Shown here in pieces: positions 1 through 38,976 of a stretch of 64,000 bases of DNA. The notes beneath the pieces were generated by a model. That model was not told the DNA's origin. It saw only the letters and a list, made by a program, of their open reading frames with translations, and did no database searches. The number at the start of each line of letters is the position of its first letter. Within the stretch, counting starts at the first letter, position 1. Source of the DNA: Oscillibacter valericigenes Sjm18-20 (GTDB lineage: Bacteria; Bacillota; Clostridia; Oscillospirales; Oscillospiraceae); contig AP012044.1 of the NCBI GenBank assembly GCA_000283575.1, positions 1,612,001-1,676,000 on the forward strand, read 5' to 3'. A program made the position numbers and the translations under genes.

Positions 1-129
1 CATAATTGATAAAAATTCGCCTTTGGGGATTTGCAGTGAGATACCCTTGAGCACTCTAGTGACGGTGTCACCTATTTTAAAATCTTTTATGATATTTTCG
101 CCTTCTATGGCGACAGGCATTTTAGTCAT
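1..129 (-). CDS. ABC transporter ATP-binding protein, N-terminal part
   Basis: The first 43 codons of a gene that continues past the left edge. The start reads MTKMPVAIEGENIIKDF and continues into VLKGISLQIPKGEFLSIM, the strand before the Walker A loop in MacB/LolD-type ATPases; the Walker motifs themselves lie outside the window. AAGGAG precedes the ATG at good spacing, and the gene follows the large permease by 17 bases, so the two form a transporter operon. By family this subunit powers a MacB/FtsX-type exporter, often for peptides or antimicrobial resistance. The substrate cannot be told. Confidence 0.85.
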   Translation of the reverse strand, partial: MTKMPVAIEGENIIKDFKIGDTVTRVLKGISLQIPKGEFLSIM

Positions 130-146
130 ATGCATTCTCCTTATTC

Positions 147-2708
147 TTATTCGAATTTGATCTCTTCTACGAGCTTCATTCTAGAGCCTTTCAAAATCGG
201 TACAACGGAACCAAGCAGGGTAATAATGATTCCCGCAAGACCGGCCATCATAAATATTCCTGCGTCCAGCTCCGGGGTAACCAAAATTTTCGGGCCGGCA
301 ACGATAAAGATTGTTCCTATTTCCATGTATGAGACAAACATTCCGATCACTGCACCAATAAGCCCTGATGTAAACCCTTCCAACAGCGTCATTTTTACAT
401 TCTGACGGTTGCTCATTCCGACCGATTTGTACATGGCGATGGAGCGTTTCCTTTGAATATAGTTGATGAGCAGATTGTTAATAATGCCGACAGCCGCAAG
501 CAGCAGAATAAAATACGTAAGCTTTCGCATTGGCTCCAAAAACGAGCTAACGGTACTCATCGCATCCTGGTTAAATTCTTCTATTGTACGGCACCAGTTT
601 GTTTTGTTTCCAAATAAATTACGGATTTGCACCATAACGGCATCGGGGTCGGCGGCGGTATAGGTCAGCATACCGTAATTCTGTACACCGAAATCACTTT
701 TCACATAGGCAGCCGGGATAACGGCATCCGAATTGTCTGCGCGCGACTGAAAGGCTCCGATAATCCGGTAGTTGAATGTTTTTCCGTGATATGCAAGGCT
801 AACGGTATCGCCAATCGTCAGGTTGTGTTTTGTCATACAATCTTTGGTCAGAAGGATGTTTCTCTCATTTGCGAAGGAAGTATCAACATCATTTTTTACC
901 TGTTCGCTGTCATAGTGAATATTGAGCATGGAATTATACAGGCTGACATTATCCACAGCTTCCACTTGATTAAGGTCAAAGCCGTCCGTACTGATTTCAT
1001 TGGTTAACTGATAGATAGGCAAAACATTGTCAATTCCTTGAACGCTTTTAACCTCATTTACAAACTCCTCGCTCATGTCTGCCTGCGCGAAACCGTTCAG
1101 TCCAGCGCCATGAAAAACATCTCCCACATAGGAGGAAACAAAGTTTCCAATCACACTGATTGCGATAACTGCCGACAGGCTGATAAACAGCAGCGTGATA
1201 TTCTGGCTTGCATTTTTATTCTGTTTCATGTTCCGGGCGGCAAGTCTGCCTTCATTACCGAATATCAGCCCGTAAACCTGCTCCAGAACATAAGAGAAAA
1301 GGTTTATAAGCATCGGAATGATGATAATTGTTGCCGTGATCAGTCCAAGCAATGAAAACCCTCCCGCAAGCGTGAGCAGGTTTCCGGAGTTTTTATTCAC
1401 AACACGCGGAAGAATGACGGAAAGGATAAAAAGGACAGCTCCAAATATGAGTTTTGTCTTGTTGGAGATATTCTTTTCTTCTACTGTACCCAAAACGATG
1501 TCCTTTACCGGAAGGCGGCTTGCCCTGCGGATCGGGAGATAGGCACTCAGCATAGATACGGAAACTGCCACCGTGCAGGAGAGCAGAATGTTAAGCGGTG
1601 AAACCACCATTGGTATTTCGATACCCATCGACAGTGATTCACCCAGCCCGTTAAGGATCAGTTTCAAAATACCGTAGCTCAGCGGAATGCTGAGCAGGCC
1701 TCCGGCAATTCCGTATATCAGGCTTTCGAACAACAGAATTCTGGTCGTCATCTTTTCGGAAGCACCGATGCTGCGGAAGGTCCCGATGACCGGAAGACGC
1801 TCAAGTGTGATGACCTTGTAGCTGCCGAAAATAATAAAAGCGCTCATTGTAAGGGAGAAAAAGCTGATCAGATAAAACGGCAGGGATTTTTGCTTTGCAT
1901 CCGACGCGACCTGCGTTTCGTTATAGACCTTTGTCACATTATATTTTTCCGAAAGCAGGGAAGACGACAGTTCAGATTTCAGTTCCTCTGTACTTATTCC
2001 GCCAGATGGCACAATCAGTATTTTACTGTTGCCGCCGGAAGTGTTTAGAATAGAGGATAGGGTATCCTTCGGAAGCAGAGCGTTAACGCCCCTCGTGCTT
2101 CTTAGGAACACCGTGTCATAGGCGGCTATGGCGGCAAGACTGAATTGGTACTTCGTTTCACCTATGGTAAGTGTGACGGTATCCCCCGGTTTAATACCAT
2201 ATTTGGTTGTGAATTTTTCGGGTAGGACAATACTGGATCCGGTAAAATCCGTAAGTGTGGCGCCGTTCAACAGCCGGGGCTTATTGATAGAGTTCAGCTC
2301 ATTTAAATTGGCCGCAATCAGGTCAATGTTCTCATAATAACTGCCTTTGTTATAAAGTGCCGGTGCAGTTATAAAACCGACCATATTTTTTATCGATGCA
2401 GTCTGAGGAATTTCGTCTTCCGAAACCCAGACTGTGTTGCCGGTTGCATCTTGTTTCGCTGAAACCTCTACTGTAGCTGTTCCCGCCGAGCCTTTTGCCA
2501 TCTTCTGTTGGGCGCTTTCATAGGAATCTCCAATCGCCATGGAAACAAACAACAACGTTGATGACAGGACAATAGACAACAGCATTACGATTGTTCTTAG
2601 CTTTCGTTCTTTGATATTGTTTACAATGTACTTCAGTATGATCTTCAAATATGTACCTGCTTTCTTAAACCAAAAAGATTGATCACTTATATTAAAACGA
2701 TAAGCCAT
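147..2708 (-). CDS. FtsX/MacB-type ABC transporter permease
   Basis: About 853 residues, a usual size for the Firmicute permeases with two FtsX domains. One membrane segment lies near residues 38-60, followed by a large extracytoplasmic region, then three segments at about 280-400. A second half repeats the plan (large domain about 530-700, last helices about 740-840). An ATG at 2,708 is chosen; a TTG one codon upstream is also possible. It pairs with the downstream ATPase. Two AATTAAG boxes 11 bp apart lie 27-44 bases upstream, matching boxes next to the two-component system at 9-11 kb, so regulation by that system is likely. The BceAB/VanRS-style role in envelope stress or antimicrobial peptides is inference. 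Confidence 0.88.
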   Translation of the reverse strand: MAYRFNISDQSFWFKKAGTYLKIILKYIVNNIKERKLRTIVMLLSIVLSSTLLFVSMAIGDSYESAQQKMAKGSAGTATVEVSAKQDATGNTVWVSEDEIPQTASIKNMVGFITAPALYNKGSYYENIDLIAANLNELNSINKPRLLNGATLTDFTGSSIVLPEKFTTKYGIKPGDTVTLTIGETKYQFSLAAIAAYDTVFLRSTRGVNALLPKDTLSSILNTSGGNSKILIVPSGGISTEELKSELSSSLLSEKYNVTKVYNETQVASDAKQKSLPFYLISFFSLTMSAFIIFGSYKVITLERLPVIGTFRSIGASEKMTTRILLFESLIYGIAGGLLSIPLSYGILKLILNGLGESLSMGIEIPMVVSPLNILLSCTVAVSVSMLSAYLPIRRASRLPVKDIVLGTVEEKNISNKTKLIFGAVLFILSVILPRVVNKNSGNLLTLAGGFSLLGLITATIIIIPMLINLFSYVLEQVYGLIFGNEGRLAARNMKQNKNASQNITLLFISLSAVIAISVIGNFVSSYVGDVFHGAGLNGFAQADMSEEFVNEVKSVQGIDNVLPIYQLTNEISTDGFDLNQVEAVDNVSLYNSMLNIHYDSEQVKNDVDTSFANERNILLTKDCMTKHNLTIGDTVSLAYHGKTFNYRIIGAFQSRADNSDAVIPAAYVKSDFGVQNYGMLTYTAADPDAVMVQIRNLFGNKTNWCRTIEEFNQDAMSTVSSFLEPMRKLTYFILLLAAVGIINNLLINYIQRKRSIAMYKSVGMSNRQNVKMTLLEGFTSGLIGAVIGMFVSYMEIGTIFIVAGPKILVTPELDAGIFMMAGLAGIIITLLGSVVPILKGSRMKLVEEIKFE

Positions 2709-2734
2709 CAACCTAATTTTATCTTTCAGCTATC

Positions 2735-2752
2735 CTTAATTTAATCTTAATT
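2735..2752 (-). promoter_or_regulatory. Two AATTAAG boxes 11 bp apart upstream of the permease
   Basis: Read on the minus strand, AATTAAG occurs twice with an 11-bp start-to-start distance. Direct repeats one helical turn apart are the usual target of OmpR-family response regulators. The same heptamer at the same phase lies at 11,181, 11,192 and 11,214, beside the sensor kinase gene. Confidence 0.55.
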
Positions 2753-2873
2753 TGCATTGGAACATGCGATTGTGATGCCTAGAATTTCATCCCATGGAGG
2801 GATATCATAGAAGTGCAGAGGACAAACACCCCAAAGGTGATAGAATCAAAGGAAGAACAAGGTGGTGTTTGCA

Positions 2874-3161
2874 ATGCGCAAATATGATAAGGAGTTCAAA
2901 GAAGAAGCGGTCAAGCTGTCCGATGAAATCGGCGTGAAGCAGGCGGCGGCACAGCTGGGCATTCCGTACTACTCTCTGGCGGAGTGGCGGCAAAAGCGAA
3001 AGGCCTTCGGAGATCACGCCTTCGTCGGCAGCGGCATTCGCCGCGACGCACCGCTTTCCGAGAACGAACGTCGACTAATAAAGGAAATCGCGGAGCTGCG
3101 AAAAGCAAATGAGATTCTTAAAGATGCGCTGGGTTTTTTCGCCAAAGACCGGAAACGGTAA
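2874..3161 (+). CDS. IS3-family OrfA, element A copy 1
   Basis: 95 residues: an N-terminal helix-turn-helix (MRKYDKEFKEEAVKL) and a C-terminal leucine-zipper-like helix, as usual for IS3 OrfA. The ATG after AAGGTGGTG is preferred to the GTG four codons upstream. Near the end the codons GGT TTT TTC form the slippery heptamer T TTT TTC, and the -1 frame then runs into OrfB, so an OrfAB fusion by programmed frameshift is expected for this family. Confidence 0.88.
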   Translation: MRKYDKEFKEEAVKLSDEIGVKQAAAQLGIPYYSLAEWRQKRKAFGDHAFVGSGIRRDAPLSENERRLIKEIAELRKANEILKDALGFFAKDRKR

Positions 3162-4017
3162 AGCCGGAGCGGCTGTATGAGTACATCACGCTGCGCCGTG
3201 AGCGGTTCTGCATTCATACCATGTGTCGGGTTGTGAAAGTCAGTGAATCCGGGTACTACCGCTCTTTGCAGTCGGCTGGCAAGCCAAAACCATGGCAGCT
3301 GCTTCTGGTCAAAATACGAGAGATTTATAATGAAAATCCGGACAATGACAATTATGGCGTTGGCCGAATTCTCCTGGCGCTTATGCAGCGCGGTATTGCG
3401 GTAAGCCGCAGCAGCGTACGGCGGGCCATGAAACGTGAAGGCCTGCCATCGCGCTCCTCGGCACCCCTGCGCAGAAGGCGGAGAACCTGATTCACCGGGA
3501 TTTTACCGCAGACGCCCCTAACCGGAAGTGGCTGACAGATATCACGCAGATCCAATGTAAGGACGGCAAGCTGTATTTGGCAGCAGTTCTGGACTGTTAT
3601 AACAGAGAGATCGTCGGTCTTGCCATGGATGACAACATGAAGAAGGAGCTGTGTATCCGGGCGTTTCGGTCTGCCTGCCAGGCGCAGGGAGCCTATGGAA
3701 TGACCCTGCACAGCGACCGCAGCAGCCAATTTACCAGTTCCTCATTTCGGAAGGTGCTGGCGCAATACGGTGCGGTTCAAAGCATGAGCGGTACGGAACA
3801 CTGCTACGACAACGCCAGGATGGAGAGCTTTTTTGCTACGCTGAAAAAAGAAAAACTTTATCGAATCCGGACGGAGCAGATGCCCATGGCACAGGTTAAG
3901 AGCATCGTGTTCCGGTACATCATGACCTACTATAACCGCCGGCGAATCTACACTGCCAACCCCGGCGGCCTGCCGCCGGCCACATATCGTCAGGCCGCCA
4001 GAGGCCTGGCCGCATAA
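3136..4017 (+). pseudogene. IS3-family OrfB transposase, frameshifted (copy 1)
   Basis: DDE integrase-type transposase in two frames. The first part, with its MCRVVKVSESGYYRSL core, goes out of frame at about 3,445 in a short deletion and runs to a stop at 3,490. The rest continues in another frame from IHRDFTADAPNRKWLTDITQ to the C-terminus, including DNARMESFFATLKKE with the catalytic Glu. Copy 4 carries the same lesion, while copy 3 still has the missing stretch. Not expected to make active transposase. Confidence 0.85.
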
Positions 4018-4065
4018 GCCGCAGATTTTGGGTGTTCACATTCTGCACGGTTCTTGACTTCTCCA

Positions 4066-4122
4066 AAGGATCTGGGGAAGCAAGTTGTTCTGGTCGAAGC
4101 ATTGGACAACTTTTGAGGTGGC
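4066..4122 (+). pseudogene. Flavin reductase (OYE/enoate-type) fragment, 3' side of an IS insertion
   Basis: Reads DLGKQVVLVEALDNF then a stop. This matches the second beta strand of the NAD-binding Rossmann fold in 2,4-dienoyl-CoA/enoate-reductase-type proteins. It is the direct in-frame continuation of the fragment at 12,798-12,870 (minus strand), which ends GYELALWLTK, once the IS and one AAG copy are removed. Confidence 0.6.
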
Positions 4123-4390
4123 CAACCATATTTGATAGGAGCCGTATGGTCTTTTGTGGACACCATTTTTCCAAGCCTGTCAGGTTCACCATCATGTGTA
4201 CAGCTGGCAGTGAATATACAATAATGTTTGGAGGAGAAGCATTCATTGAACGACTCGGACGCGCCAAGGGAAGAATATATGCAGATTTGCTTTTCGCTTG
4301 ACGGCATGACTTCAGCCAATGTTCCAAGATATGTTGCAATAAGTTTTTTATCTCTTTCACGTCAATTGCAACGCAACTGTTTCAAGCTTT

Positions 4391-4446
4391 TAGCACGCCG
4401 GACTCTGACTCCGCCTGTGAGGATTCGAATCCTTCACCCGCTGCCA
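4391..4446 (+). repeat. tRNA-Gln(CTG) 3' fragment, att remnant 1
   Basis: Anticodon arm with CTG, variable loop, T arm and acceptor 3' strand ending GCTGCCA; the D arm and 5' acceptor strand are missing. It is nearly identical to the 3' half of the complete tRNA-Gln at 38,903-38,976. The bases just before it (AAGCTTTT) are shared with the fragment at 25,986, as expected for a phage-side att arm. The adjoining tyrosine integrase supports an attachment site. Confidence 0.8.
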
Positions 4447-4456
4447 AAAGGAAAGT

Positions 4457-4486
4457 GCTGTATCGCAATCGATACAGGGCTTTTTT
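4457..4486 (+). terminator. Intrinsic terminator after the tRNA-Gln fragment
   Basis: An 8-bp stem CTGTATCG/CGATACAG with a 4-base loop, followed by GGGC and six T. Confidence 0.75.
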
Positions 4487-4798
4487 CATATTCATAACAG
4501 ATCAATCACCACAGTTTTTACCACAATCGGCTTTCGAGACAGAATAACCGGTACAGTTACAACCGGAAAAAGGCAATAAAAAATGACATGCTGACGGTGG
4601 GGGTGGTTTGCAAGTCAGATTAGGCCCAGAACACCGCCGAGGCCGTATGCTCTTCCTCACCTATCCATGTTCCTCTACGAAAATAGCAGTATTTATAGCT
4701 TTTAGCCTTATACATTAAGAGGGGGGCGCGTTACGCGCCCCCCTCTTAATTCTTGTTGGAACTTACTCAGGTTTGAGCAGGTTCTTATTTTTTTGCGC
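4487..4798. other. Intergenic att flank with a 35-base palindrome
   Basis: No gene seen. Positions 4,715-4,749 form a near-perfect palindrome: two 16-base arms of TTAAGA, G6 and CGCG around a TTA loop. It probably serves as a bidirectional terminator below the integrase gene. Confidence 0.6.
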
Positions 4799-6012
4799 CT
4801 ATGCCTGTTTAGAACTGATCTGGTTAATATATGTCTCCATTCGGTTGGTACTATCCTCTTTCATCCTCTCGGAGACATGACCGTACCGGTCCAGTGTGAA
4901 TGCCGCCGTTGCATGGCCCAGGTTTTGCTGAACGGTTTTTACGTCGTCTCCATTCTGAAGGCTCAGAGTGGCGTATGTGTGCCTCAGGTCGTGCACGCAG
5001 GCGCTGTCGGCGCCTAGCTGAACGGCCAACGTCCTGAAATGGCTATAGACCGTTCCGGGGTTCAAGTGCAGGCCATATTCATTCGTAAACACAACAGACG
5101 TTTTGCGTTCTTTTTCTGTAGTCCATCCCTGCCATTGATCCAAAGTTTTCATCCTGGCTGATAGCTGCTGAATGCTCTGCTGGTGAAGTACCTCCATAAC
5201 GAACGGTGCCGGTTTGATTATCCTTGTCTTGTCATTTTTGGTGCTGTCAAAGACAAAGCCGCCGCCTTTTTTCGAGCGCTTTTGAAGCTGCTTACAAATG
5301 GTGATCGTCCCAGATTGGAAATCCACGCAGTCCCATATCAATCCAATGGCCTCGCTCTCGCGGAGACCGCAGAACAGTATTACCTTGAACAGCGGCGCAT
5401 AATACTCGTCGCCATCGACTATTTTCAAAAATTCTTTGACCTGCTCATCCGTTAAGGGTTTGACCTGGCTTTTAGGGGCACGAGGAAGTTTTGCCTTATT
5501 GCATGGATTGGAGCGGATATACTCAATTTCCACCGCCGTATCCAGAATCGCGCTCAGAACGCCGTGAATGTTCTTTACGGTTTTTGGTGCGAGACCGTCT
5601 TTTCTTGTCAGATTGTTTATGAACGTCTGCACAGCGTGTTTTGTCAACTCACCTAGGGCCGTTGTACCAATGCCGGGCTTGATATGATTTTCAATCTGAG
5701 CTTTATAAGTTTTTTTGTCAAATATTTTAAGTCACTCGTATAATCGTCTAACCAGATATCACACCATTTTTTGAGCGGCATTTTATTCGGCTCAACGTAG
5801 CTGTTATCATCAACCGAAACCGTGACCACCCGGAGTTTTTGCGCAACGTCGAAAGAAGTTGCGCCGGTGATTGTCTTGCGGATCAGTTTGCCGGTTCCTG
5901 GGTTCACGCCAGAGCAGTACTGTGCCTCCCACCAATGATGGGTTTTTCCGTTCCGCATCACAGTTCGCTCCCGGATGCAGCCGGATCCGTTTACACTACG
6001 CTTCCTCGCCAT
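4799..6012 (-). pseudogene. int: Tyrosine integrase of an integrative element, -1 frameshift in an A7 run
   Basis: Two frames together give a complete phage/ICE integrase of about 400 residues. An N-terminal AP2-like arm-binding region (start MARKRSVNGSGCIRERT at 6,012) runs to about 5,710. There ACA AAA AAA CTT carries an A7 run, and a -1 shift continues as ACT TAT AAA GCT into the core-binding and catalytic domains. Catalytic residues seen: Arg in FCGLRESEAIGL, HDLRHTYATLSL, the LGHA box and Tyr in LDRYGHVSE. The gene ends beside the tRNA-Gln att fragment, the usual layout. The A AAA AAA C string is either a one-base loss or a programmed slippery site. Confidence 0.85.
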
Positions 6013-6148
6013 TTAGAACGCCCCCTTTTTCGTTTTTTGCCGCCGCTTCGTCCAACAGCTTTTTTGCCAATATTGTAATAGGCCACTGCGCTTCAGTCAT
6101 CGCAGCATTAAACTCTTTGGTCTTCTCATGTTCAACAAGCAGTCTCAT
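5996..6148 (-). CDS. Small ORF between the XRE gene and the integrase
   Basis: 50 residues starting MRLLVEHEKTKEFNAAM and ending KGGVLNGEEA, overlapping the integrase start by 17 bases. The frame is open up to the stop of the XRE gene, so it could also be the detached C-terminal end of that protein after a TAG mutation. No family recognised. An excisionase-like or regulatory role is only suggested by position. Confidence 0.35.
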   Translation of the reverse strand: MRLLVEHEKTKEFNAAMTEAQWPITILAKKLLDEAAAKNEKGGVLNGEEA

Positions 6149-6199
6149 GTTCCCGTCAATTTTATCTCCCAATCGAATAAGGGCTTGCTCAAATAAGGA

Positions 6200-6592
6200 C
6201 TAATTTTTTCCATATTCCATGCAAGATACTATTCCTCTAATAAAGTTTCCAAACTCGTCTGTTTCAAGCACTGCGTTCAATGCTTTTAATTCGCTAGGAT
6301 GTTGACGAATTCGAAAAATTTTATCAATAGCATTTGCCGTTAGCCCGGTCTTTTTGTTTATATCAACGTTTTCAGCTTTTATTCCTCTTAGTATTTCATC
6401 GCAGGTCACGCCAAAGAAATCAGCCAAGCTGATAGTAGCTTGTGTTTTCAAATCGCGATCTCCATTTTCCCACTGGACAACCGTTTCACGTCTTACATAC
6501 ATTGCCTTTGCAAGCTCTGCCTGGGTTAAACCTTTATCTTTACGGAGTTGCTCAATTCTACCGCCTATTGTGTTACTCCTGTCCATAACGCA
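6200..6592 (-). CDS. XRE-family transcriptional regulator
   Basis: Cro/CI-type helix-turn-helix at the N-terminus (IGGRIEQLRKDKGLTQAELA, then YVRRETVVQWENGDR) and an unassigned C-terminal half. The start used here begins MDRSNTIGG (about 6,586-6,592); a longer reading from 6,637 has no better ribosome site. Divergent or repressor control of the neighbouring integration module is typical. IS element B copy 1 has landed 88 bases upstream of the long frame. Confidence 0.75.
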   Translation of the reverse strand, partial: CVMDRSNTIGGRIEQLRKDKGLTQAELAKAMYVRRETVVQWENGDRDLKTQATISLADFFGVTCDEILRGIKAENVDINKKTGLTANAIDKIFRIRQHPSELKALNAVLETDEFGNFIRGIVSCMEYGKN

Positions 6593-6711
6593 CCCCCAGA
6601 TGTTGTTATTTTGTTCCTTTTGTTCATTTAATAACATAATATGTCGCTTTATCTCTGCTTATGTTACTATAATATCACTGACCTGCCCCCTGATTTCGCG
6701 CAGAGGGAATG

Positions 6712-7461
6712 TTAGTAACAACTTGAAAGTTTCAAGGCATATTCTTCCGGCGTCAGGTTGTCGAGAGAGGAATGCGGCCTGATCCTGTTATATTCCAACC
6801 GCCAGTTTTCAATTATCTCCCTTGCCTCAGACAAGCTTTGAAACCAATGTTGGTTTAGGCATTCCGCGCGGAGTTTCCCGTTGAAGCTTTCTATGTAGCC
6901 GTTTTGCATGGGCTTGCCCGGATCTGTAAAAATGTGTTCCACTTTGTGATCGTACGCCCAGGCATTCATTACATTACTGGTAAATTCAGAGCCGTTATCG
7001 GTCAGAATTTCTTTCGGCAGCCCCCGGAACAAGGCGATCCGGTTTAGAACAGCCGATACCCTCCGCCCGGAGAGAGAGCTATCCACTTCAAGAGCCAGAC
7101 ATTCCCGCGTCACTTCATCAATTACGGTCAGAACGCGAATGTTTGAGCCATATCTGGTTCTGTCGCTGACAAAATCCATCGACCAGCGAGCATTCATTTC
7201 TTTTGCGGTGCGTTCCGGCATGCCGCGCTTTTCATATTTCTTCTTTTTGCTTCGCTTCTGAAGGGTTAATCCTGCATCCTTGTAAAGCCTGTATGTTTTT
7301 TTGTGGTTAATCTCAAAGCCTTCGCGCAGAAGCATGACATGTAACCGGCGATAACCAAATCGTTTCCAGCGCACCGAAAGTGCCTTCAGCCGTTCTGTTA
7401 CCAAAGTATCCCCGCTTTTATCGGTCGGCTTGTATCGTTTGCTGTTCTGGCTGATCCCCAT
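6712..7461 (-). CDS. IS407-group OrfB transposase, copy 1
   Basis: About 249 residues from the first ATG, with an open -1 frame extending upstream to OrfA. DDE domain residues seen: RWSMDFVSD (first Asp), [10 protein letters not shown] (second Asp), [14 protein letters not shown] (Glu). The OrfA end carries A AAA AAC, a standard -1 slippery site, so the active form is probably the OrfAB fusion. Confidence 0.93.
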
Positions 7462-7538
7462 TAGCCTGCACGCGCGGCGCTCGCTGATTTCATAGCATTC
7501 CTGTACTTCGGCTGCTATTTTGCGTTTTACGGCAGGCT

Positions 7539-7802
7539 TCAGACGTTTTTTGAAAGCACGTCCTTTAATATCTTATTATCCAAAGACAAGTCGGCGACCA
7601 TTTCTTTCAGCCGACGGTTTTCTTCTTCAAGCTGTTTCAGACGCTTGGCTTCACTAACGTCCATGCCGCCATATTTGCTTTTCCAACGGTAAAAAGTCTG
7701 TTCTGTGATATTGTACTCACGGACAATATCCACTGCCTTCTTGCCACCCTCGTGCTCCTTGAGAATCTTGATGAGCTGTTCTTCTGTAAACCTTACCTTC
7801 AT
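7539..7802 (-). CDS. IS407-group OrfA, copy 1
   Basis: 87 residues starting [20 protein letters not shown]: helix-turn-helix followed by a coiled coil ([20 protein letters not shown]). The ATG after GGAGTGATTGAC is preferred to the upstream frame extension. Its 3' end overlaps OrfB in the -1 frame. Confidence 0.92.
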
Positions 7803-7879
7803 GTCAATCACTCCATTTTTTCTATTGTAGCATATCGTGACTAACATTCCTATTGACGAAGTTTTTCGGGTTCAGGTCA

Positions 7880-8307
7880 TCACCATGAATGCAGAACCGC
7901 TCACGGCGCAGCGTGATGTACTCATACAACCGCTCCGGCTTTACCGTTTCCGGTCTTTGGCGAAAAAACCCAGCGCATCCTTGAGAATCTCATTGGCTTT
8001 CCGCAGCTCGGCGGTTTCCTTTATCAGCCGGCGTTCGTTCTCGGAAAGCGGCGCGTCGCGGCGAATGCCGCTGCCGACGAAAGCGTGGCCTCCGAAGGCC
8101 TTTCGCTTTTGCCGCCACTCCACCAGAGAGTAGTACGGAATGCCCAGCTGTGCCGCCGCCTGCTTCACGCCGATTTCATCGGACAGCTTGACCGCTTCTT
8201 CTTTGAACTCCTTATCATGTTTGCGCATTGAAAACACCACCTTATTCTTCCTTTGATTCTATCACTTTTGGGGTGTTTGCCCTCTGCACTTCTATGATAT
8301 CCCTCCA
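7880..8307 (-). mobile_element. IS3-family element A, copy 2, left-end remnant
   Basis: Carries the left terminal repeat (ending at 8,307), an intact orfA (7,941-8,228, 95 residues) and the first bases of the orfB region. The rest is gone, and element B copy 1 abuts the break. OrfA differs from copy 1 at only a few residues. Confidence 0.88.
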
Positions 8308-8353
8308 CATCTAGGCATTGCAAGGGACAAGCAATCAAGAAAGGAGGCTCATT

Positions 8354-8560
8354 ATGCCACACACAAAGCTGTCATCACACTCGGACACGCAAAAGGATTT
8401 AGCAAATCGCATTAAGGCCGAGAGCTATGCGCTGTATGGCTCCTACACACAGGCTGCGCCCCATGGAATCAGCCAGCCTACATTAACCCGGCGGTTGAAA
8501 GACGTGGACTCGTTCAGCATTAGGGAATTAAGAGGCCTGCGCACAGCCCTGAAATCATAA
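8354..8560 (+). CDS. Small HTH-like protein (phage/ICE type)
   Basis: 68 residues starting MPHTKLSSHSDTQKDL, after a strong AAAGGAGG. The stretch GISQPTLTRRLKDVDSFSIR resembles the recognition part of a phage Cro-like or XRE helix-turn-helix. It begins 46 bases from the end of IS element A copy 2, so its former upstream context is lost. Function unproven; DNA binding is inferred from the motif. Confidence 0.5.
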   Translation: MPHTKLSSHSDTQKDLANRIKAESYALYGSYTQAAPHGISQPTLTRRLKDVDSFSIRELRGLRTALKS

Positions 8561-9047
8561 AGGAGGAAATGTTAAAGCATTTGGTGGCACTACTTTAACC
8601 GCTTGGTAGAGCACGCGGGACGGTTTCAGCAACAGTTGTGTATCTCACTTGGCAGCCACTCGGTTCGCATCAGCAAAAATAGAAAAATATGGGGGCGTAG
8701 CTCAGCTGGGAGCGGAGAAGACACGGAAATCGCAATAAGAAAGGATTAAATCTCGCTCTGTGTTGACGCCGATTCTCTGCGCGGTCCGCAGCTTGATATA
8801 CATAATACGGAGCAAAGCCCACTGGAGTAACGGGCTTTGTTGTCATGGCAAACTTCGGCAGAAGCGTTGCGACTGTTATATGCCAGCGGACAAAGTCTGC
8901 CGGTGAGATTTGACAAATTGTGCTTGACTTTGCTTAACTGGTCTGGTCTAGTGTGCCCATCGGCGTATAATTGATAAATAAACATGCTGATGATATAATC
9001 ATTATAAAACAGCTTATTCGCTGGATTTTTACCATAGAGGTGAAAAA
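8561..9047. other. Intergenic region with a tRNA 5' fragment and the two-component promoter
   Basis: At 8,572 AAGGAGGAA precedes a 9-codon ORF of no clear meaning. Positions 8,691-8,714 match the 5' acceptor and D arm of a tRNA (GTAGCTCAGCTGGGAG core) and then break off. TTGATA (8,971-8,976), a 17-bp spacer and TATAAT (8,994-8,999) form a near-consensus promoter 48 bases upstream of the response regulator. Confidence 0.6.
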
Positions 9048-9779
9048 ATGGAGAGCACTGATTGGGTGAACCTTTTAGATAAAAAAATTCTTGTCGTAGA
9101 TGATGAAAAGGACATTACAGATCTAATAGAAGATGTGTTGGACAAAGACGGCTTTCGCAAAGTCTTAAAAGCATATACCGGCTTGGATGCTATAAAAATG
9201 TCCCGCGAATTGCTGCCTGACGCAATAATCCTTGATATCATGCTTCCCGATATTGACGGAATAGAAGTATGTAAAAAAATCCGGGAATTTTCATTTTGCC
9301 CGATTATGTTTCTGTCCTCCAAAAACGATGATATAGACAAAATATTGGGCTTAAGCAGCGGCGGCGATGATTATGTAACAAAGCCTTTCAGCCCGAGGGA
9401 GATTGTGTTCCGGATAAAGGCCCAGCTTCGTAGAAAACAATATGATTGCTCAGAGAAAAGTAAAGAAAAGCAGCAAATGCTCTTTGGCGATTTGAAGATG
9501 GACACCGATGGTTGCTGTGTATATAAAAGCGGCAGGGAGCTAGAACTTACCGCAAGAGAATTCGGGTTGCTTCGCTACCTTGCCGAAAATCCAAACAAGA
9601 TCATCAACAAGGAACACCTATACGAGCAGGTCTGGGGAGAGGACAGCGTCGGCTGCGACAATACCGTTATGGTTCATATTCGTCATATCCGAGAAAAGAT
9701 AGAGGATGATCCGGCAAATCCCAAACTGCTTCAAACAGTAAAGGGGCTTGGATACAGACTTGTGAAAAGGGATAGCTAA
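9048..9779 (+). CDS. OmpR/PhoB-family response regulator
   Basis: 243 residues. Receiver domain with the acidic pair in VVDDEKD, the phospho-acceptor Asp63 in ILDIMLPDIDG and Lys in DDYVTKPFSP. The C-terminal winged helix (about 145-240) contains LTAREFGLLRYLAENPNKII and the HIRHIREKIEDDP recognition helix. The kinase ATG follows the stop directly, so the two are translationally coupled. AATTAAG repeats near the hydrolase and the ABC permease are candidate binding sites. Most like the VanR group. Confidence 0.93.
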   Translation: MESTDWVNLLDKKILVVDDEKDITDLIEDVLDKDGFRKVLKAYTGLDAIKMSRELLPDAIILDIMLPDIDGIEVCKKIREFSFCPIMFLSSKNDDIDKILGLSSGGDDYVTKPFSPREIVFRIKAQLRRKQYDCSEKSKEKQQMLFGDLKMDTDGCCVYKSGRELELTAREFGLLRYLAENPNKIINKEHLYEQVWGEDSVGCDNTVMVHIRHIREKIEDDPANPKLLQTVKGLGYRLVKRDS

Positions 9780-11186
9780 ATGAAACAGTCAGGATATAAG
9801 TCGGCATTCCATATTTACGTTATCTTCTTTGTTTTGCTCATTGGGACGCTAGCGACAGGGTTTGGCATGGTCGTTTATAATATAACCATACAAAAACCCG
9901 ATGGTCATATTGAATTCAGCAAATGGCCGGTTGATTTTACAAAGGATTTTCCCGAGTATGTTATTTTTACTGGCGATGTGCCCCAGATTAAGCAATCAGG
10001 TCTGAAACTGTTGCAGGAAAACAACCTGTGGCTTCAAATCATTGATGCTAACGGAAACGAGATTCAAAGCTATGATAAGCCTCAGGGTGTTCCGTCGCAT
10101 TACTCTCCTTTGGCTATACTGAACATCTATCAGAACGGGAACGGAAAAGATACCGTGTTTTTGGGGAACCTTTATTCGGGCGATAATGAATGGACATATA
10201 TGATCGGTTTTCCCGTGCAGATTTCCAAAGTTACCATGTATGTGAGCGGGGACAGATTTGCATCCTTCAAACCCGTTGTGCTCGTTATGTTTGGGGTTAC
10301 GCTGTTTCTTTTAATCCTATCAAGCTTTATATACAGTTTCTTAGTCGCGAAGCAAACAAAACATATCCGAAAATCAATCAGGGAAATTGTTTCACGCACC
10401 TATATACCTGTTTCGACCAACGGCTCGTTTGGTGATATTTACGAGGAACTGAATGCCATGAGCACGGAGATAAGATCGAATGATGAGGCAAGAGCCAGGG
10501 ATGAAAAGCTGCGCGAGGAGTGGATCGCCAATATCACCCACGACCTGAAAACTCCGCTGTCTCCCATCAGGGGGTATGCGGAGCTCATTTCCGATACTAA
10601 TTCCCATCCGGGGGCTGACACCATCAAAAAATACGGCGACATTATATTGAAGAATACCGCTTATGCCGAGACGCTTATCAACGATTTAAAGCTTACCTAT
10701 CAACTGAAGAATGAAATGCTCCCGCTCCATAAGAGCAAACAGAACATTGTACGATTCACAAAAGAACTGGTGATTGATTTGCTCAACAACCCGGAATACG
10801 AGCACAGAAACATCTCCTTTTGCAGCATGGACGATACGGTTGAGCTTACGTTTGACGCGGTGCTTCTAAAGCGGGCGCTTAGCAATTTGATCACCAACGC
10901 TCTGGTGCATAACAATAGGGATGCGGAGATTTCTGTTTCCATCACGGCGAGTGACCGCATTAAAATCAGCATACAGGATCATGGCTGCGGAATGAAAAAG
11001 GAAGAACTGGACAATTTGTTTGTCCGGTATTACCGGGGGGAAAATACGGCCGCGAATCCGGAGGGCTGTGGTTTGGGAATGGAAATTGCCAAACAGATTA
11101 TCGAGCTGCACGGAGGGAGTATTTTGGTGGAAAGCGAACCCGGCTCCGGTACATGCATCACCATTGAGTTTGCCAAACGAAATTAA
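9780..11186 (+). CDS. Sensor histidine kinase of the two-component system
   Basis: 468 residues. Membrane helices at about 11-33 and 163-187 enclose an extracytoplasmic sensor of about 130 residues. A linker leads to HisKA with His254 in ANITHDLKTPLSP, then HATPase with the N box (NLITNALVHN), DHGCGM and GCGLGMEIAK. It partners the response regulator directly upstream. The signal is unknown; the former neighbourhood (hydrolase plus ABC exporter) suggests cell-envelope or antibiotic stress. Confidence 0.93.
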   Translation: MKQSGYKSAFHIYVIFFVLLIGTLATGFGMVVYNITIQKPDGHIEFSKWPVDFTKDFPEYVIFTGDVPQIKQSGLKLLQENNLWLQIIDANGNEIQSYDKPQGVPSHYSPLAILNIYQNGNGKDTVFLGNLYSGDNEWTYMIGFPVQISKVTMYVSGDRFASFKPVVLVMFGVTLFLLILSSFIYSFLVAKQTKHIRKSIREIVSRTYIPVSTNGSFGDIYEELNAMSTEIRSNDEARARDEKLREEWIANITHDLKTPLSPIRGYAELISDTNSHPGADTIKKYGDIILKNTAYAETLINDLKLTYQLKNEMLPLHKSKQNIVRFTKELVIDLLNNPEYEHRNISFCSMDDTVELTFDAVLLKRALSNLITNALVHNNRDAEISVSITASDRIKISIQDHGCGMKKEELDNLFVRYYRGENTAANPEGCGLGMEIAKQIIELHGGSILVESEPGSGTCITIEFAKRN

Positions 11187-11220
11187 GGATAAATTAAGAT
11201 TCATAGGGCAGTGAATTAAG
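11181..11220 (+). promoter_or_regulatory. Three AATTAAG boxes spaced 11 and 22 bp
   Basis: AATTAAG starts at 11,181, 11,192 and 11,214, overlapping the kinase stop codon and leading toward the hydrolase. Exact multiples of 11 bp place all three on one face of the helix, the arrangement expected for a response-regulator dimer array. The same boxes precede the permease at 2.7 kb. Confidence 0.55.
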
Positions 11221-11221
11221 G

Positions 11222-11257
11222 TTGCAGGTCTACTCTTAAAGTGGGCCTGCAGCTTTT
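11222..11257 (+). terminator. Terminator after the kinase gene
   Basis: TGCAGGTC and GGCCTGCA pair around a 13-base loop, followed by GC and six T. It lies between the kinase and the hydrolase start, so it either ends the two-gene operon or attenuates read-through. Confidence 0.65.
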
Positions 11258-11286
11258 TTATGCAGAGGCCGGAAGGAGAACTGATA

Positions 11287-11999
11287 TTGCGAATATTTAA
11301 GAAAACTATCTGTGCTGCGGTATTCTCTGTTTTGCTTTTCACCATAACCGCTCCGGCACACGCAGCGGAAACCATTACCGCCGTTCAAAGCCTCGAAAAA
11401 ATGACGGACGAATATTTTAACAATGCGTTTCCCGATGACCATGTGGCCGGAGCGGCAGTATTTGTTGTAAAAGATGAGAAAATCCTTTTTGAAAAAGGAT
11501 ATAGCTATGCAGATCTTGAAAGCAAATACCCGTAGACGCTAAGAGTACATTGTTTCAGATCGCATCTGTATCAAAAGTGTTTACCGCCACAGCCGTCATG
11601 CAGATGGTAGAAAAGAGTAAGCTTTCGTTGGACAAGGATGTAAACAGCTATCTGATGACTTTTAAAGTGAATACTCCGTTTTCCACTCCTGTTACTTTAA
11701 GAACTCTGCTGCCCCATACTTCGGGGCTTGATTTTCGAATTCCGCTGCTTGTCCTGCGTTCGGGAGATGTTCTTTCCGATTGAATGGAAGCACTTGAAAG
11801 CAATTTGAAGGAAAACCTGCCGCCCGTTATCCGGGAGCCGGGAACCTTCTGCCAATATAACGGCTACGGTATCGCTTTGGCGGGTTATCTGGTTGAAATC
11901 GCTTCCGAAGAACCGCTCGGCCGGTACATTACCGAAAACATATTGAAGCCGCTTGAAATGAACCATTCCTCCTATGGCCTTACGAAGTCCGTACTCCCG
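11287..11999 (+). pseudogene. Serine hydrolase (beta-lactamase / penicillin-binding type), broken
   Basis: A TTG start with GGAAGGAG eight bases upstream gives a signal peptide (MRIFKKTICAAVFSVLLF, cleavage near AHAAE). The frame is lost at KYP, where one C seems missing at 11,530; the next frame continues VDAKSTLFQIASVSKVFTAT with the catalytic SxxK (SVSK). A further in-frame stop lies at 11,781. The YNG motif (CQYNGYGIALAG) is still present. The gene then fuses to a truncated IS element at about 12,000, losing the C-terminal third. Family role: cell-wall or D-aminopeptidase-like hydrolysis outside the membrane. Confidence 0.85.
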
Positions 12000-12797
12000 T
12001 CCATAGCAAGACCGACGATCTCTCCGTTATAACAGTCCAGAACTGCCGCCAGGTACAGCTTGCCGTCCTGACACTGGATCTGCGTGATATCTGTCAGCCA
12101 CTTCCGGTTGGGTGCGTCTGCGGTAAAATCCCGGTGAATCAGGTTCTCCGCCTTCTGCGCAGCCAAGTCTGCTCTTGTCAGATTCCCGGGGTGACGGGGA
12201 GAGCGATGGAGCAGACCTCCACGCTTCATGGCCCGCCGTACGTTGCTGCGGCTTACCGCAATACCGCGCTGTGTAAGCGCCAGGAGAATTCGGCCAACGC
12301 CATAATTGTCATTGTCCGGATTTCCATTATAAATCTCCTGCCACGGTTTTGGCTTGCCAGCCGACTGCAAAGAGCGGTAGTACCCGGATTCACTGACTTT
12401 CACAACCCGGCACATGGCATGAACGCAGAACCGCTCCGGCTTTACCGTTTCCGGCCTTTGGCGAAAAAAGCCAGCGCATCCTTGAGAATTTCATTGGCTT
12501 TCCGCAGTTCCGCGATTTCCTTTATCAGCCGGCGCTCGTTCTCGGAAAGCGGCGCGTCGCGGCGAATGCCGCTGCCGACGAAGGCGTGGTCTCCAAATGC
12601 CTTTCGCTTTTGCCGGAGAGTAGTACGGAATGCCCAGTTGTGCCGCCGCCTGCTTCACGCCGATTTCATCGGACAGCTTGACCGCTTCTTCTTTGAACTC
12701 CTTGTCATATTTTCGCATTGCAAACACCACCGTATTCTTTCTTTGATTCTATCACTTTTGGGGTGTTTGCACTCTACACTTCTATGATATCCCTCCA
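12000..12797 (-). mobile_element. IS3-family element A, copy 3, truncated
   Basis: Left terminal repeat intact (end at 12,797); the right end is missing and fused to the hydrolase. orfA has a small internal deletion (SPAKAKGIW replaces the tryptophan-rich stretch). orfB lacks the QLLLVKIR region but retains the RSPRHPGNLTRADLAAQKAE stretch that copies 1 and 4 have lost. Its outer flank, read on the minus strand, ends ACAAAG and pairs with AAGGAT beside copy 1. Confidence 0.88.
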
Positions 12798-12870
12798 CTT
12801 TGTCAGCCACAGGGCAAGCTCATAGCCCACCATGCCGCCGCCAGATAACTTTTCATCTGTTCCAGACGGA
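12798..12870 (-). pseudogene. Flavin reductase (OYE/enoate-type) fragment, 5' side of the IS insertion
   Basis: On the minus strand it reads GTDEKLSGGGMVGYELALW then LTK, a Rossmann GxGxxG turn as in the NAD(P)-binding domain of enoate/2,4-dienoyl-CoA reductases. The coding sense stops exactly at the IS end and resumes at 4,066. Nothing upstream of it looks coding. Confidence 0.6.
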
Positions 12871-21396: not shown

Positions 21397-22412
21397 AACT
21401 TTCCTAGGGTTTATCAGACGGCAGGCTCCGGGGAAGCTATTTGTTACTATCAATACTAATTGCATAACTTTTATCCGGTGACTCTGGCTAACTCGAGGGA
21501 CAATCCCAAGTTTTGTGTAAACCTCCGATGTGGTGTAAAATAGAAGCACCACATCGGAGGTATTATTATGGCCAGAAAGAATCGCAGTCCCGAAGAAAAT
21601 GAGCGCAGGGCAAAAATCCGTGAGCTGCTACAGGCAAGCAATATCAGCAGCATGGATGACATCCAGAACCTGTTCAAGGAGACGATTGCTGAATTCATAG
21701 AAAACGGTCTCGATGCAGAACTGGATGACGAGCTGGGCTACAGCAAATATGATTACAAAAACAAGTGGACCGATAATAGCCGGAACGGACACAGCAACAA
21801 GACGCTGCGCACCAGATTCGGCGATGTGAAAGTTGCTGTCCCACGGGATCGGAACGGCGAATTTGAACCGCAGCTTTTGAAGAAAAACCAGACCAGCATC
21901 AGTCAGGACATTGAAGAAAAGATCCTGTCTATGTACGCAAAGGGTATGACGACCAGCGATATCGAGAGCCACATTCGTGATATTTACGGCATAGAGGTCT
22001 CTGATACGACGGTCAGCCGAGTGACGGACAAGATCCTTCCCATCGCAAAAGAATGGCAGCAGCGCCCCTTGGAAGCCACCTATGCGGTGGTATTTCTGGA
22101 TGCGATCCATTTCCACGTCCGGAGCGAAGGGCAGATCGTCAAGAAAGCCGTATATATCGCCATTGGCATCAACCTTGATGGGCGGAAAGATGTCCTTGGA
22201 ATGTGGGTTGGTGAAAACGAAAGTGCCAAGTTCTGGGCAACGGTACTCAACAGTCTACGTAATCGTGGTGTGGAAGATATTTTTATTGCCTGCACAGACA
22301 ATCTCACCGGATTTTTCGCTGCCATTGAGGCGGTGTGACCTGAACCCGAAAAACTTCGTCAATAGGAATGTTAGTCACGATATGCTACAATAGAAAAAAT
22401 GGAGTGATTGAC

Positions 22413-22676
22413 ATGAAGGTAAGGTTTACAGAAGAACAGATCATCAAGATTCTCAAGGAGCACGAGGGTGGCAAGAAGGCAGTGGATATTGTCCGTGAGT
22501 ACAATATCACAGAACAGACTTTTTACCGTTGGAAAAGCAAATATGGCGGCATGGACGTTAGTGAAGCCAAGCGTCTGAAACAGCTTGAAGAAGAAAACCG
22601 TCGGCTGAAAGAAATGGTCGCCGACTTGTCTTTGGATAATAAGATATTAAAGGACGTGCTTTCAAAAAACGTCTGA
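22413..22676 (+). CDS. IS407-group OrfA, copy 2
   Basis: 87 residues, differing from copies 1 and 3 by EEQII in place of EEQLI. Ends in the A AAA AAC slippery site. Confidence 0.93.
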
Positions 22677-22753
22677 AGCCTGCCGTAAAACGCAAAATAG
22701 CAGCCGGAGTACAGGAATGCTATGAAATCAGCGAGCGCCGCGCGTGCAGGCTA

Positions 22754-23503
22754 ATGGGGATCAGCCAGAACAGCAAACGATACAAGCCGACCGATAAAAG
22801 CGGGGATACTTTGGTAACAGAACGGCTGAAGGCACTTTCGGTGCGCTGGAAACGATTTGGTTATCGCCGGTTACATGTCATGCTTCTGCGCGAAGGCTTT
22901 GAGATTAACCACAAAAAAACATACAGGCTTTACAAGGATGCAGGATTAACCCTTCAGAAGCGAAGCAAAAAGAAGAAATATGAAAAGCGCGGCATGCCGG
23001 AACGCACCGCAAAAGAAATGAATACTCGCTGGTCGATGGATTTTGTCAGCGACAGAACCAGATATGGCTCAAACATTCGCGTTCTGACCGTAATTGATGA
23101 AGTGACGCGGGAATGTCTGACTCTTGAAGTGGATAGCTCTCTCTCCGGGCGGAGGGTATCGGCTGTTCTAAACCGGATCGCCTTGTTCCGGGGGCTGCCG
23201 AAAGAAATTCTGACCGATAACGGCTCTGAATTTACCAGTAATGTAATGAATGCCTGGGCGTACGATCACAAAGTGGAACACATTTTTACAGATCCGGGCA
23301 AGCCCATGCAAAACGGCTACATAGAAAGCTTCAACGGGAAACTCCGCGCGGAATGCCTAAACCAACATTGGTTTCAAAGCTTGTCTGAGGCAAGGGAGAT
23401 AATTGAAAACTGGCGGTTGGAATATAACAGGATCAGGCCGCATTCCTCTCTCGACAACCTGACGCCGGAAGAATATGCCTTGAAACTTTCAAGTTGTTAC
23501 TAA
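22754..23503 (+). CDS. IS407-group OrfB transposase, copy 2
   Basis: 249 residues from the ATG, with an open -1 frame back to OrfA ([20 protein letters not shown]). Intact DDE triad as in copy 1. It differs from copy 1 by substitutions such as MNTRW for MNARW. Confidence 0.93.
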
Positions 23504-24884
23504 CATTCCCTCTGCGCGAAATCAGGGGGCAGGTCAGGTGTTCCCTAAAACAGGGATCCAGAACTGCATCATCCACCAGATCCGGAATTCCACTCGGTAT
23601 GTTTCCTACAAGGATCTGAAAGCCTTGGTGGCTGACCTCAAGGCGGTTTATGCGGCCGCGGATGAGCCGTCGGCACTGGAAGCTCTGGAGGCGTTTGCTC
23701 AGCGCTGGGACAAGAAATACCCCAAAATCTCGGCCTCCTGGCAGGATAACTGGCCCAATCTGAGTACTTATTTCAAGTTCCCACAGGAAGTCCGGCGCCT
23801 CATTTATACCACCAATGCCATTGAGGGCTTTAACCGCCAGCTTCGTAAAGTGACCAAGGCAAAATCTGTCTTCCCCACGGATGACAGTCTTTTGAAAATG
23901 CTGTATTTAGCCATGATGGACATTACAAAAAAGTGGACCGGCAGACGTCAGGACTGGAGTATGATCCACGCACAGTTGGCAGTCTACTTTGCAGACAGAC
24001 TGCCCGATTGAGCGACTGATTCTTGACATGCGGCAAGTTCGCCACTAATATGACACCAAGGGAGCAGCCCCCTTGATAGACGCTGCTCCCTTGAAATAAA
24101 TCGCTCTATTCGCACCATGGTTGACCGTTTACACAGAATTCGGGGCAGACCCTAACTCGAATTCTGTTGCTTCCAATACCAAGATGAGTCTGTCATTGTT
24201 AACATCCAGAAAACTTATGGGTATTGCCATTCCTGTGGTAGAGTCAGATACGCTTAATGACTTTATCTCATCGTCCATGTTTATACTTGACATATCCATT
24301 TTAAACAGCCTATAAAAAGAATCCTTGCTATAACATATATCGGTAATATTATAGAGAGGTTTATCTAATTCGTACTGATAAGCATCATGGCTTTTAAATC
24401 ATTTTGATGAAAATGAGCCTTTGCTAATTACAATTTTATCATCAATAATTTTTTGCCCTGTTGGATACTCTGATGCATCTTTATAAGAATCTGCGAATTC
24501 AAGTAGCTTATCTACTTTACAAGTTCCATAGAAAAACTCGCTGGTTTCACTGCCCAAATCCGCTTTCCCTATAAAAGGTTCAGATGTATTGATAGGAATA
24601 CTACTGATATCATCTTCTGTAGTATCCGTTGCACTATTGTCCACGTGTTCATCTGGCTCATTGCCAGCATCAATGGATGGATTACCACTACAACCAAACA
24701 AACAACCACACAATATGGACATTATCAAACATGACAGAATTTTTTCCCCATCTTTTCCCTCCAAATTATTATTATACAAAAATGGCATCCGGACGAATTA
24801 TTCTAAACACTAAATGAAAAGATTTTCAACAAAAAAGGGCAATTCTTTCGTAATATCTGTTGACTGAGCCGGTAAATGTCATAT

Positions 24885-25827: not shown

Positions 25828-26041
25828 AACCCCCGTGGGAGCCAGTGCGGTTCTCACGGGGGCATTCGTTTTAACCGCTTTTTAACCACTGAAACGCATT
25901 ATAACGCGCCGATAAAATCTGAAAGTAAAAAAAATAATTAACCGTCAAACCATTGAAAAATCAATGCTTTTCGGCTAATTATCTTTGGCAGCGGGTGAAG
26001 GATTCGAACCCTCACAGACTGAGTCAGAGTCCGGAGTGCTA
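25828..26041 (-). repeat. Element end plus tRNA-Gln 3' fragment (att remnant 2)
   Basis: 25,986-26,041 is the 3' half of tRNA-Gln(CTG), minus strand, ending CCA at 25,986. The anticodon stem carries changes relative to the complete gene (CACTCC, ACTCAG). Downstream, 25,828-25,985 aligns with the DNA below the intact tRNA (38,735-38,902), including the CCCCCGTG hairpin and the tRNA terminator. On the other side AAGCTTTT matches the arm beside fragment 1. Confidence 0.8.
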
Positions 26042-38902: not shown

Positions 38903-38976
38903 TGGCAGCGGGTGAAGGATTCGAACCCTCACAGACGGAGTCAGAGTCCGGCGTGCTACCATTACACAAACCCGCT
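38903..38976 (-). tRNA. tRNA-Gln(CTG)
   Basis: Complete cloverleaf of 74 bases including encoded CCA: acceptor AGCGGGT/ACCCGCT, D arm TGTAATGGTAGCA, anticodon stem CCGGA/TCCGT with loop CTCTGAC (anticodon CTG), T arm GAGGGTTCGAATCCTTC. The 3' half is repeated at 25,986 and 4,391, marking it as an integration target. Confidence 0.93.

Follow-up and report, generated by a model that had tools for sequence, protein, structure and literature searches.

A probable inversion by recombination between inverted insertion sequence copies that split a regulator-transporter cluster in Oscillibacter valericigenes Sjm18-20

In the clam-gut bacterium Oscillibacter valericigenes, the genes for a response regulator and a sensor histidine kinase and the remains of a serine hydrolase gene face away from the genes for an ABC permease and ATPase. 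Copies of one insertion sequence (IS), here called copy 1 and copy 3, stand in inverted orientation at the two ends of the block that contains the regulator and kinase. The question raised by this locus is whether the divergent order is the original one or whether the block was turned around, and if so by which route. The window is the whole 64,000-nucleotide stretch of strain Sjm18-20 that was analyzed. A sequence-only reading of it had proposed that the segment 4,066-12,000 was flipped by recombination between the two IS copies. Our analysis supports this proposal with a reductase paralog at one breakpoint and with a related gene cluster from another family, in genome G569, at the other. Very probably, the cluster was split when the 7.9-kb block was flipped by recombination between the inverted IS copies. 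The coordinates of the features are collected in Table 1.

Table 1. Features of the window and of the corresponding gene run in G569
Feature	Position	Strand	Remarks
ABC ATPase gene start	1-135	-	runs on leftwards beyond the window
FtsX-type ABC permease, 854 aa	147-2711	-	
Repeated box AAATTAAGATTAAATTAAGG	2734-2753	-	upstream of permease; likely response-regulator site (predicted function)
Probable last hydrolase codons (GMKF-stop)	2779-2793	-	far side of copy 1; short, suggestive
IS copy 1	2795-4065	+	full length, 1271 bp, IS3-type; left inversion breakpoint
Reductase remnant, right side of former IS insertion	4066-4109	+	44 bp; 43/44 to L043:9468-9511
Reductase remnant, 3' end and downstream	4112-4202	+	91 bp, 78% to L043:9813-9902, past the stop
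tRNA-Gln 3' half, probable att site	4391-4447	+	inside flipped block
Tyrosine integrase split over two ORFs	4799-5647, 5653-6012		adjoins tRNA-Gln fragment
Second IS-like repeat, 1202 bp	6678-7879	-	inverted copies at 100%
Second IS-like repeat, other copy	22336-23537	+	
OmpR-type response regulator, 243 aa	9048-9779	+	inside flipped block
Sensor histidine kinase, 468 aa	9780-11186	+	inside flipped block
Related repeated box AATTAAGGATAAATTAAG	11181-11198	+	upstream of hydrolase; predicted function
PF00144-type serine hydrolase pseudogene	11260-11999	+	three separate ORFs, C-terminal part lost
IS copy 3	12000-12797	-	right breakpoint; limited to IS positions 1-835, cut off at 12000 where it meets the hydrolase
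Reductase remnant, left side of former IS insertion	12798-12849	-	52 bp; 47/52 to L043:9420-9470
tRNA-Gln fragment (3' half)	25928-26041	-	
Intact tRNA-Gln gene	38903-38976	-	
G569 (L077) regulator	13846-13133	-	
G569 (L077) kinase	13129-11726	-	
G569 (L077) hydrolase	11687-9741	-	
G569 (L077) permease	9675-7117	-	
G569 (L077) ATPase	7095-6412	-	

Inverted copies of an IS3-type element

Inverted copies of the same element were confirmed at both breakpoints, copy 1 on the plus and copy 3 on the minus strand as first described, with the correction that copy 3 is incomplete and that its inner end is not an IS terminus. The IS proteins, an HTH_Tnp_1 orfA (PF01527) and an rve-domain orfB (PF00665), both scored above the cut-offs of these models, which places the element in the IS3 kind. 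The orfB of copy 1 is broken (its longest frame has 192 codons), and two ORF pieces of this copy scored 41.5 and 130.3 bits with NCBIfam NF033516, below the cut-off of 160. A stop-to-stop orfB frame of 303-310 codons is retained in the IS copies L012, L016, L022, L023 and L024.

BLAST aligns copies 1 and 3 in two pieces, at 90% and 85% identity when gaps are counted; with gaps left out, they differ by 3-9% per 150-column window. The longest identical run that they have in common today is 65 bases. They belong to different variant classes: a 26-bp segment at IS position 672 is found in copy 3 and is absent from copy 1, and IS positions 505-525 of copy 1 are absent from copy 3.

The genome (two contigs) contains at least 44 matches to the element; this count comes from 40 scored candidates of 89, with copy 3 absent from the list and some matches being pieces of one copy. 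Target duplications of 3-4 bp were found at 12 of 29 full copies, and the other 17 have no matching duplication of 3 bp or more. Mapping of crossovers within the IS sequences was abandoned, as the variants at the 98 variable columns are combined as mosaics and no crossover point could be placed. The mosaics and the 17 copies without duplication are signs of much recombination or conversion among the copies. On the basis of these two observations, we tentatively suggest, as a possibility somewhat short of probable, that this inversion is one visible case of a chromosome-wide reshuffling in O. valericigenes by about 40 copies of this IS that recombine freely with one another. Flanks were compared among 28 fetched IS copies and the copies in the window. 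Two common 300-bp flanks were identified, both outside the window, one in L015 and L018 and the other in L025 and L026, at 99-100%, pointing to duplicated or recombined segments; two short, chance-like matches were also seen.

The reductase remnant at the first breakpoint

Read on the minus strand, the outer flank of copy 3 has GTGGCTGACAAAG at its end, and AAGGATCTGGGG opens the inner flank of copy 1, exactly as the sequence-only reading had given them. Joined with one AAG, the flanks read GGGMVGYELALWLTKDLGKQVVLVEALDNF, followed by a stop. This peptide is 87% identical over query residues 10-40 (E 1.6e-12) to the product of an intact reductase gene at another site of this genome, a 666-aa ORF of the OYE type (L043:7836-9836). 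At the DNA level, the joined flanks match L043:9420-9511 in 87 of 93 positions; the only gap, of 1 nt, lies towards the left end, and the join itself is ungapped. The alignment scores are 40 and 42 for the flanks apart and 79 for the flanks joined, while 200 shuffles per flank reached no more than 18 and 16, and 1000 random pieces of 100 bp from window positions 13000-63900 no more than 17. Because the alignment to the paralog is unbroken and the controls score far lower, both flanks evidently bordered one IS insertion with a 3-bp duplication, as had been proposed. The further claim that the joined flanks restore one open frame stood in part: the alignment continues without a break, but the remnant is short and no long frame results, since it consists of only 52 bp and 44 bp, after which 301 bp of the paralog are missing, and of a further 91 bp at 78%.

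The sequence-only reading had taken out one AAG copy to join the flanks. This triplet does match across copies 1 and 3, but it carries little weight by itself: 14 of 522 pairs of left and right flanks match over 3 bp where 8.2 are expected (1/64), none of them in a reciprocal pair, and another IS fragment (L034) likewise has a left flank ending in AAG. For these reasons the matching of target duplications was dropped as a main argument. In addition, L021, a distant copy, has a right flank that fits the left flank of copy 1 (CCA). Only one of the two target duplications can be checked, the partner of the second having gone in the deletion described below.

The gene cluster at the second breakpoint and in relatives

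The sequence-only reading had predicted that flipping the block back would place the regulator, kinase and hydrolase on the same strand as the permease and directly upstream of it, and had called for a relative with regulator, kinase, hydrolase, permease and ATPase in one run. Such a relative was found. G569 belongs to the same order and another family, and in it all five genes (locus L077) form one run on one strand, with 81-93% protein identity. Window positions 1-2759 align with this locus in +/+ orientation at 85%, and positions 9234-12014 align in +/- orientation at 88%, the last 15 bases of the latter falling within the IS, at the junction. Both sides of the breakpoint thus fall within one co-directional run in G569, and approximately 1.17 kb of G569 between the two aligned stretches is without a match in the window. 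A search of G569 with the IS at E <= 0.001 gave no match, with the same query giving at least 44 in the O. valericigenes genome.

Related loci were collected with the permease at several levels. At the class level (391 genomes, E <= 1e-80) 26 genomes had a match, and at the order level (394 genomes, 1e-180) five, the own genome included in each; a search of the 22 genomes of the family of G148 (1e-180) gave two, and a further contig search gave one locus, in Eubacterium callanderi. Flanks were read in nine of the 25 other genomes from the class search, in two new ones from the order search and in E. callanderi. The other 16 of the 25, in which the permease is 28-32% identical in the rows listed, were kept outside the gene-order count. 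No new close clusters were added by the own genome and 39 others or by the 22 genomes of the G148 family. At E <= 1e-60 neither kinase nor permease had a match in these 39 other genomes (24 of the same genus, many of these incomplete), and the best 5000 matches listed in a plasmid search with the kinase were all below 60% identity.

Kinase and permease are co-oriented, with the kinase upstream, in all ten relative loci that have both on one contig (L047, L067, L068, L069, L070, L071, L072, L074, L077 and L078), although L047 and L069 are closely alike in their upstream sequences and the ten are not ten independent cases. A relative that lacks the IS copies and has the present orientation had been named as contrary evidence; none of the ten loci is divergent, and G569, with no IS match, is co-directional. 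The regulator lies just before the kinase in nine of the ten and was not found in the L068 stretch. The hydrolase lies between kinase and permease only in L077. L073, L075 and L076 lack a kinase match and are uninformative on orientation.

The box upstream of the permease was looked for in the 160 bases upstream of each permease match. Its pattern occurs at the likely place in L067, L077 and L078, and a similar string, missed by the pattern and seen by eye, occurs in L047 and L069. The box was not seen in L070, L071 and L072 within these 160 bases, and L068 has one different pattern match. G569 has close counterparts of both boxes, upstream of the permease and of the hydrolase. Through its predicted site upstream of the permease, the regulator of O. 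valericigenes could continue to act in trans on this gene. The hydrolase gene is broken either way.

Two-component systems beside FtsX/MacB-type ABC transporters are known as Bce-like or VanRS-like modules. The cluster resembles these modules in having, in the relatives, an OmpR-type regulator and a kinase beside a permease and an ATPase. However, all NCBIfam models listed for the regulator, kinase and permease (the best 25 each, five for the permease) were below cut-off, and for this reason no named subfamily is given to these proteins. For example, the best scores for VanR and VanS were 239.4 against a cut-off of 350 and 135.1 against 400. The G569 hydrolase scored 83.3 against a cut-off of 415 for class C beta-lactamases (NF033085), leaving only its PF00144 superfamily match. 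The cluster was likely acquired by horizontal transfer, as judged from its 81-93% protein identity to a genome of another family, the lack of a kinase or permease match at E <= 1e-60 among 24 genomes of the same genus, many of them incomplete, and its G+C content, which is 44-45% (147-2711 and 9048-11999) versus 59% at 40001-62000.

The point at which copy 1 entered the cluster is suggested by its outer flank. Between copy 1 and the conserved box lie 41 bases, which align with the G569 hydrolase end and the sequence that follows it, and the best of 2085 positions for the 16-nt outer flank is exactly the G569 hydrolase stop (11/16). Equally good scores were reached by 85 of 5000 shuffled versions of these 41 bases and by 93 of 5000 random pieces of the window, and the match is suggestive of an insertion point in the last codons of the hydrolase. 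At the other side the hydrolase ends at 11999, abutting IS position 835. A 10-mer at this junction, GCCATGGATG, is common to IS copy 1 and the G569 hydrolase, and the window's own junction is two bases off the common 10-mer. These positions are suggestive of a deletion via microhomology that removed the 3' end of the IS and more than half of the hydrolase, relative to the 648-aa protein of G569. The deletion may have preceded or followed the inversion.

Route of the inversion, rival explanations and other repeats

The ancestral regulator-kinase-hydrolase-permease-ATPase cluster would have lain on the minus strand. One IS copy would have entered the interval between hydrolase and permease, apparently in the last hydrolase codons, and a second copy, in opposite orientation, would have entered the nearby reductase remnant and generated an AAG target duplication of 3 bp. 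The two inverted copies would then have undergone homologous recombination, which flipped the intervening 7.9 kb. As a result, the genes for regulator, kinase and hydrolase came to lie on the plus strand and to point away from the permease gene, and the reductase remnant was divided between the two copies. A deletion, before or after the flip, would have joined IS position 835 to the hydrolase. We infer this route and this order of events; recombination between the inverted copies accounts for both breakpoints at once.

The same gene order and the same split of the reductase would also result from replicative intramolecular transposition, in which the IS in the reductase remnant was copied into the hydrolase end, flipping the block and leaving two inverted copies. 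This route is unlikely, because the two copies fall into separate variant classes and so are not simple daughters of one element unless they were converted later; moreover, elements of the IS3 type are not known to take such a route. If there had been no inversion, and the regulator-kinase and permease-ATPase blocks had come or moved separately, each beside an IS, the reductase would have to have been split by coincidence at the same two IS copies, and kinase and permease adjoin in the relatives examined. The abundance of the IS (at least 44 matches) and the 17 of 29 full copies without a duplication of 3 bp or more do suggest that much may have moved, but separate movement is extremely improbable here.

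The block might still flip and turn the cluster on and off, a reading that agrees with ours as to origin and that draws on the inverted IS copies persisting at both ends. Such a switch is very unlikely: copy 3 has lost one end, no identical stretch longer than 65 bases is left between the copies, and permease and hydrolase each have their upstream box in the current orientation, with no promoter evidently cut off. Because the breakpoints lie within repeats, an assembler could also have flipped the block. The differences between copies 1 and 3 (90% and 85% BLAST identity; 3-9% per 150-column window) speak against this, and the published account of the Sjm18-20T genome describes finishing with ABI 3730xl sequencing, at 10.2x, of inserts of 1.7, 4.6 and 40 kb, and validation against an optical map (PMC3558957). 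Given these differences, clones of three sizes and optical mapping, an assembly error is scarcely credible.

Recombination between the inverted IS copies is an event of a known kind, and the evidence for it is unusually complete. The socru article (PMC7478630) deals with inversion through homologous recombination at inverted repeats, for example rRNA operons, in which, as here, the intervening segment is flipped; in the present case the repeats are IS elements and the flipped segment is short. For S. aureus OC8, the corresponding article describes a one-megabase inversion and the spread of IS256 (PMC5065196). The S. aureus and O. valericigenes cases both concern a large inversion in a genome rich in one IS, but the O. 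valericigenes inversion spans 7.9 kb, lies within one gene cluster and has lost one IS end by deletion. The locus is a clear and checkable example of IS copies breaking a conserved regulator-transporter neighbourhood with the unrearranged sequence known at both breakpoints. It also serves as a warning, in that the divergent regulator/transporter orientation in this genome is derived.

Other repeats lie within the flipped block. A 423-bp fragment of the first IS (7885-8307) is 5 bp from one copy of the second IS-like repeat, and the remainder of the element was not found beside the fragment. The sequence-only reading had noted that flipping the block back makes all tRNA-Gln fragments co-oriented. 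This holds for the three pieces in the window, but elsewhere in the genome there are two further fragments (57 and 106 bp), one per strand, in addition to shorter weak matches. Since a single orientation amounts to a coin toss and the further fragments are on both strands, the tRNA-Gln orientation is a weak argument. The tRNA-Gln fragments and the integrase are probably remains or att sites of integrative elements, as suggested by the integrase gene lying beside a tRNA-Gln fragment.
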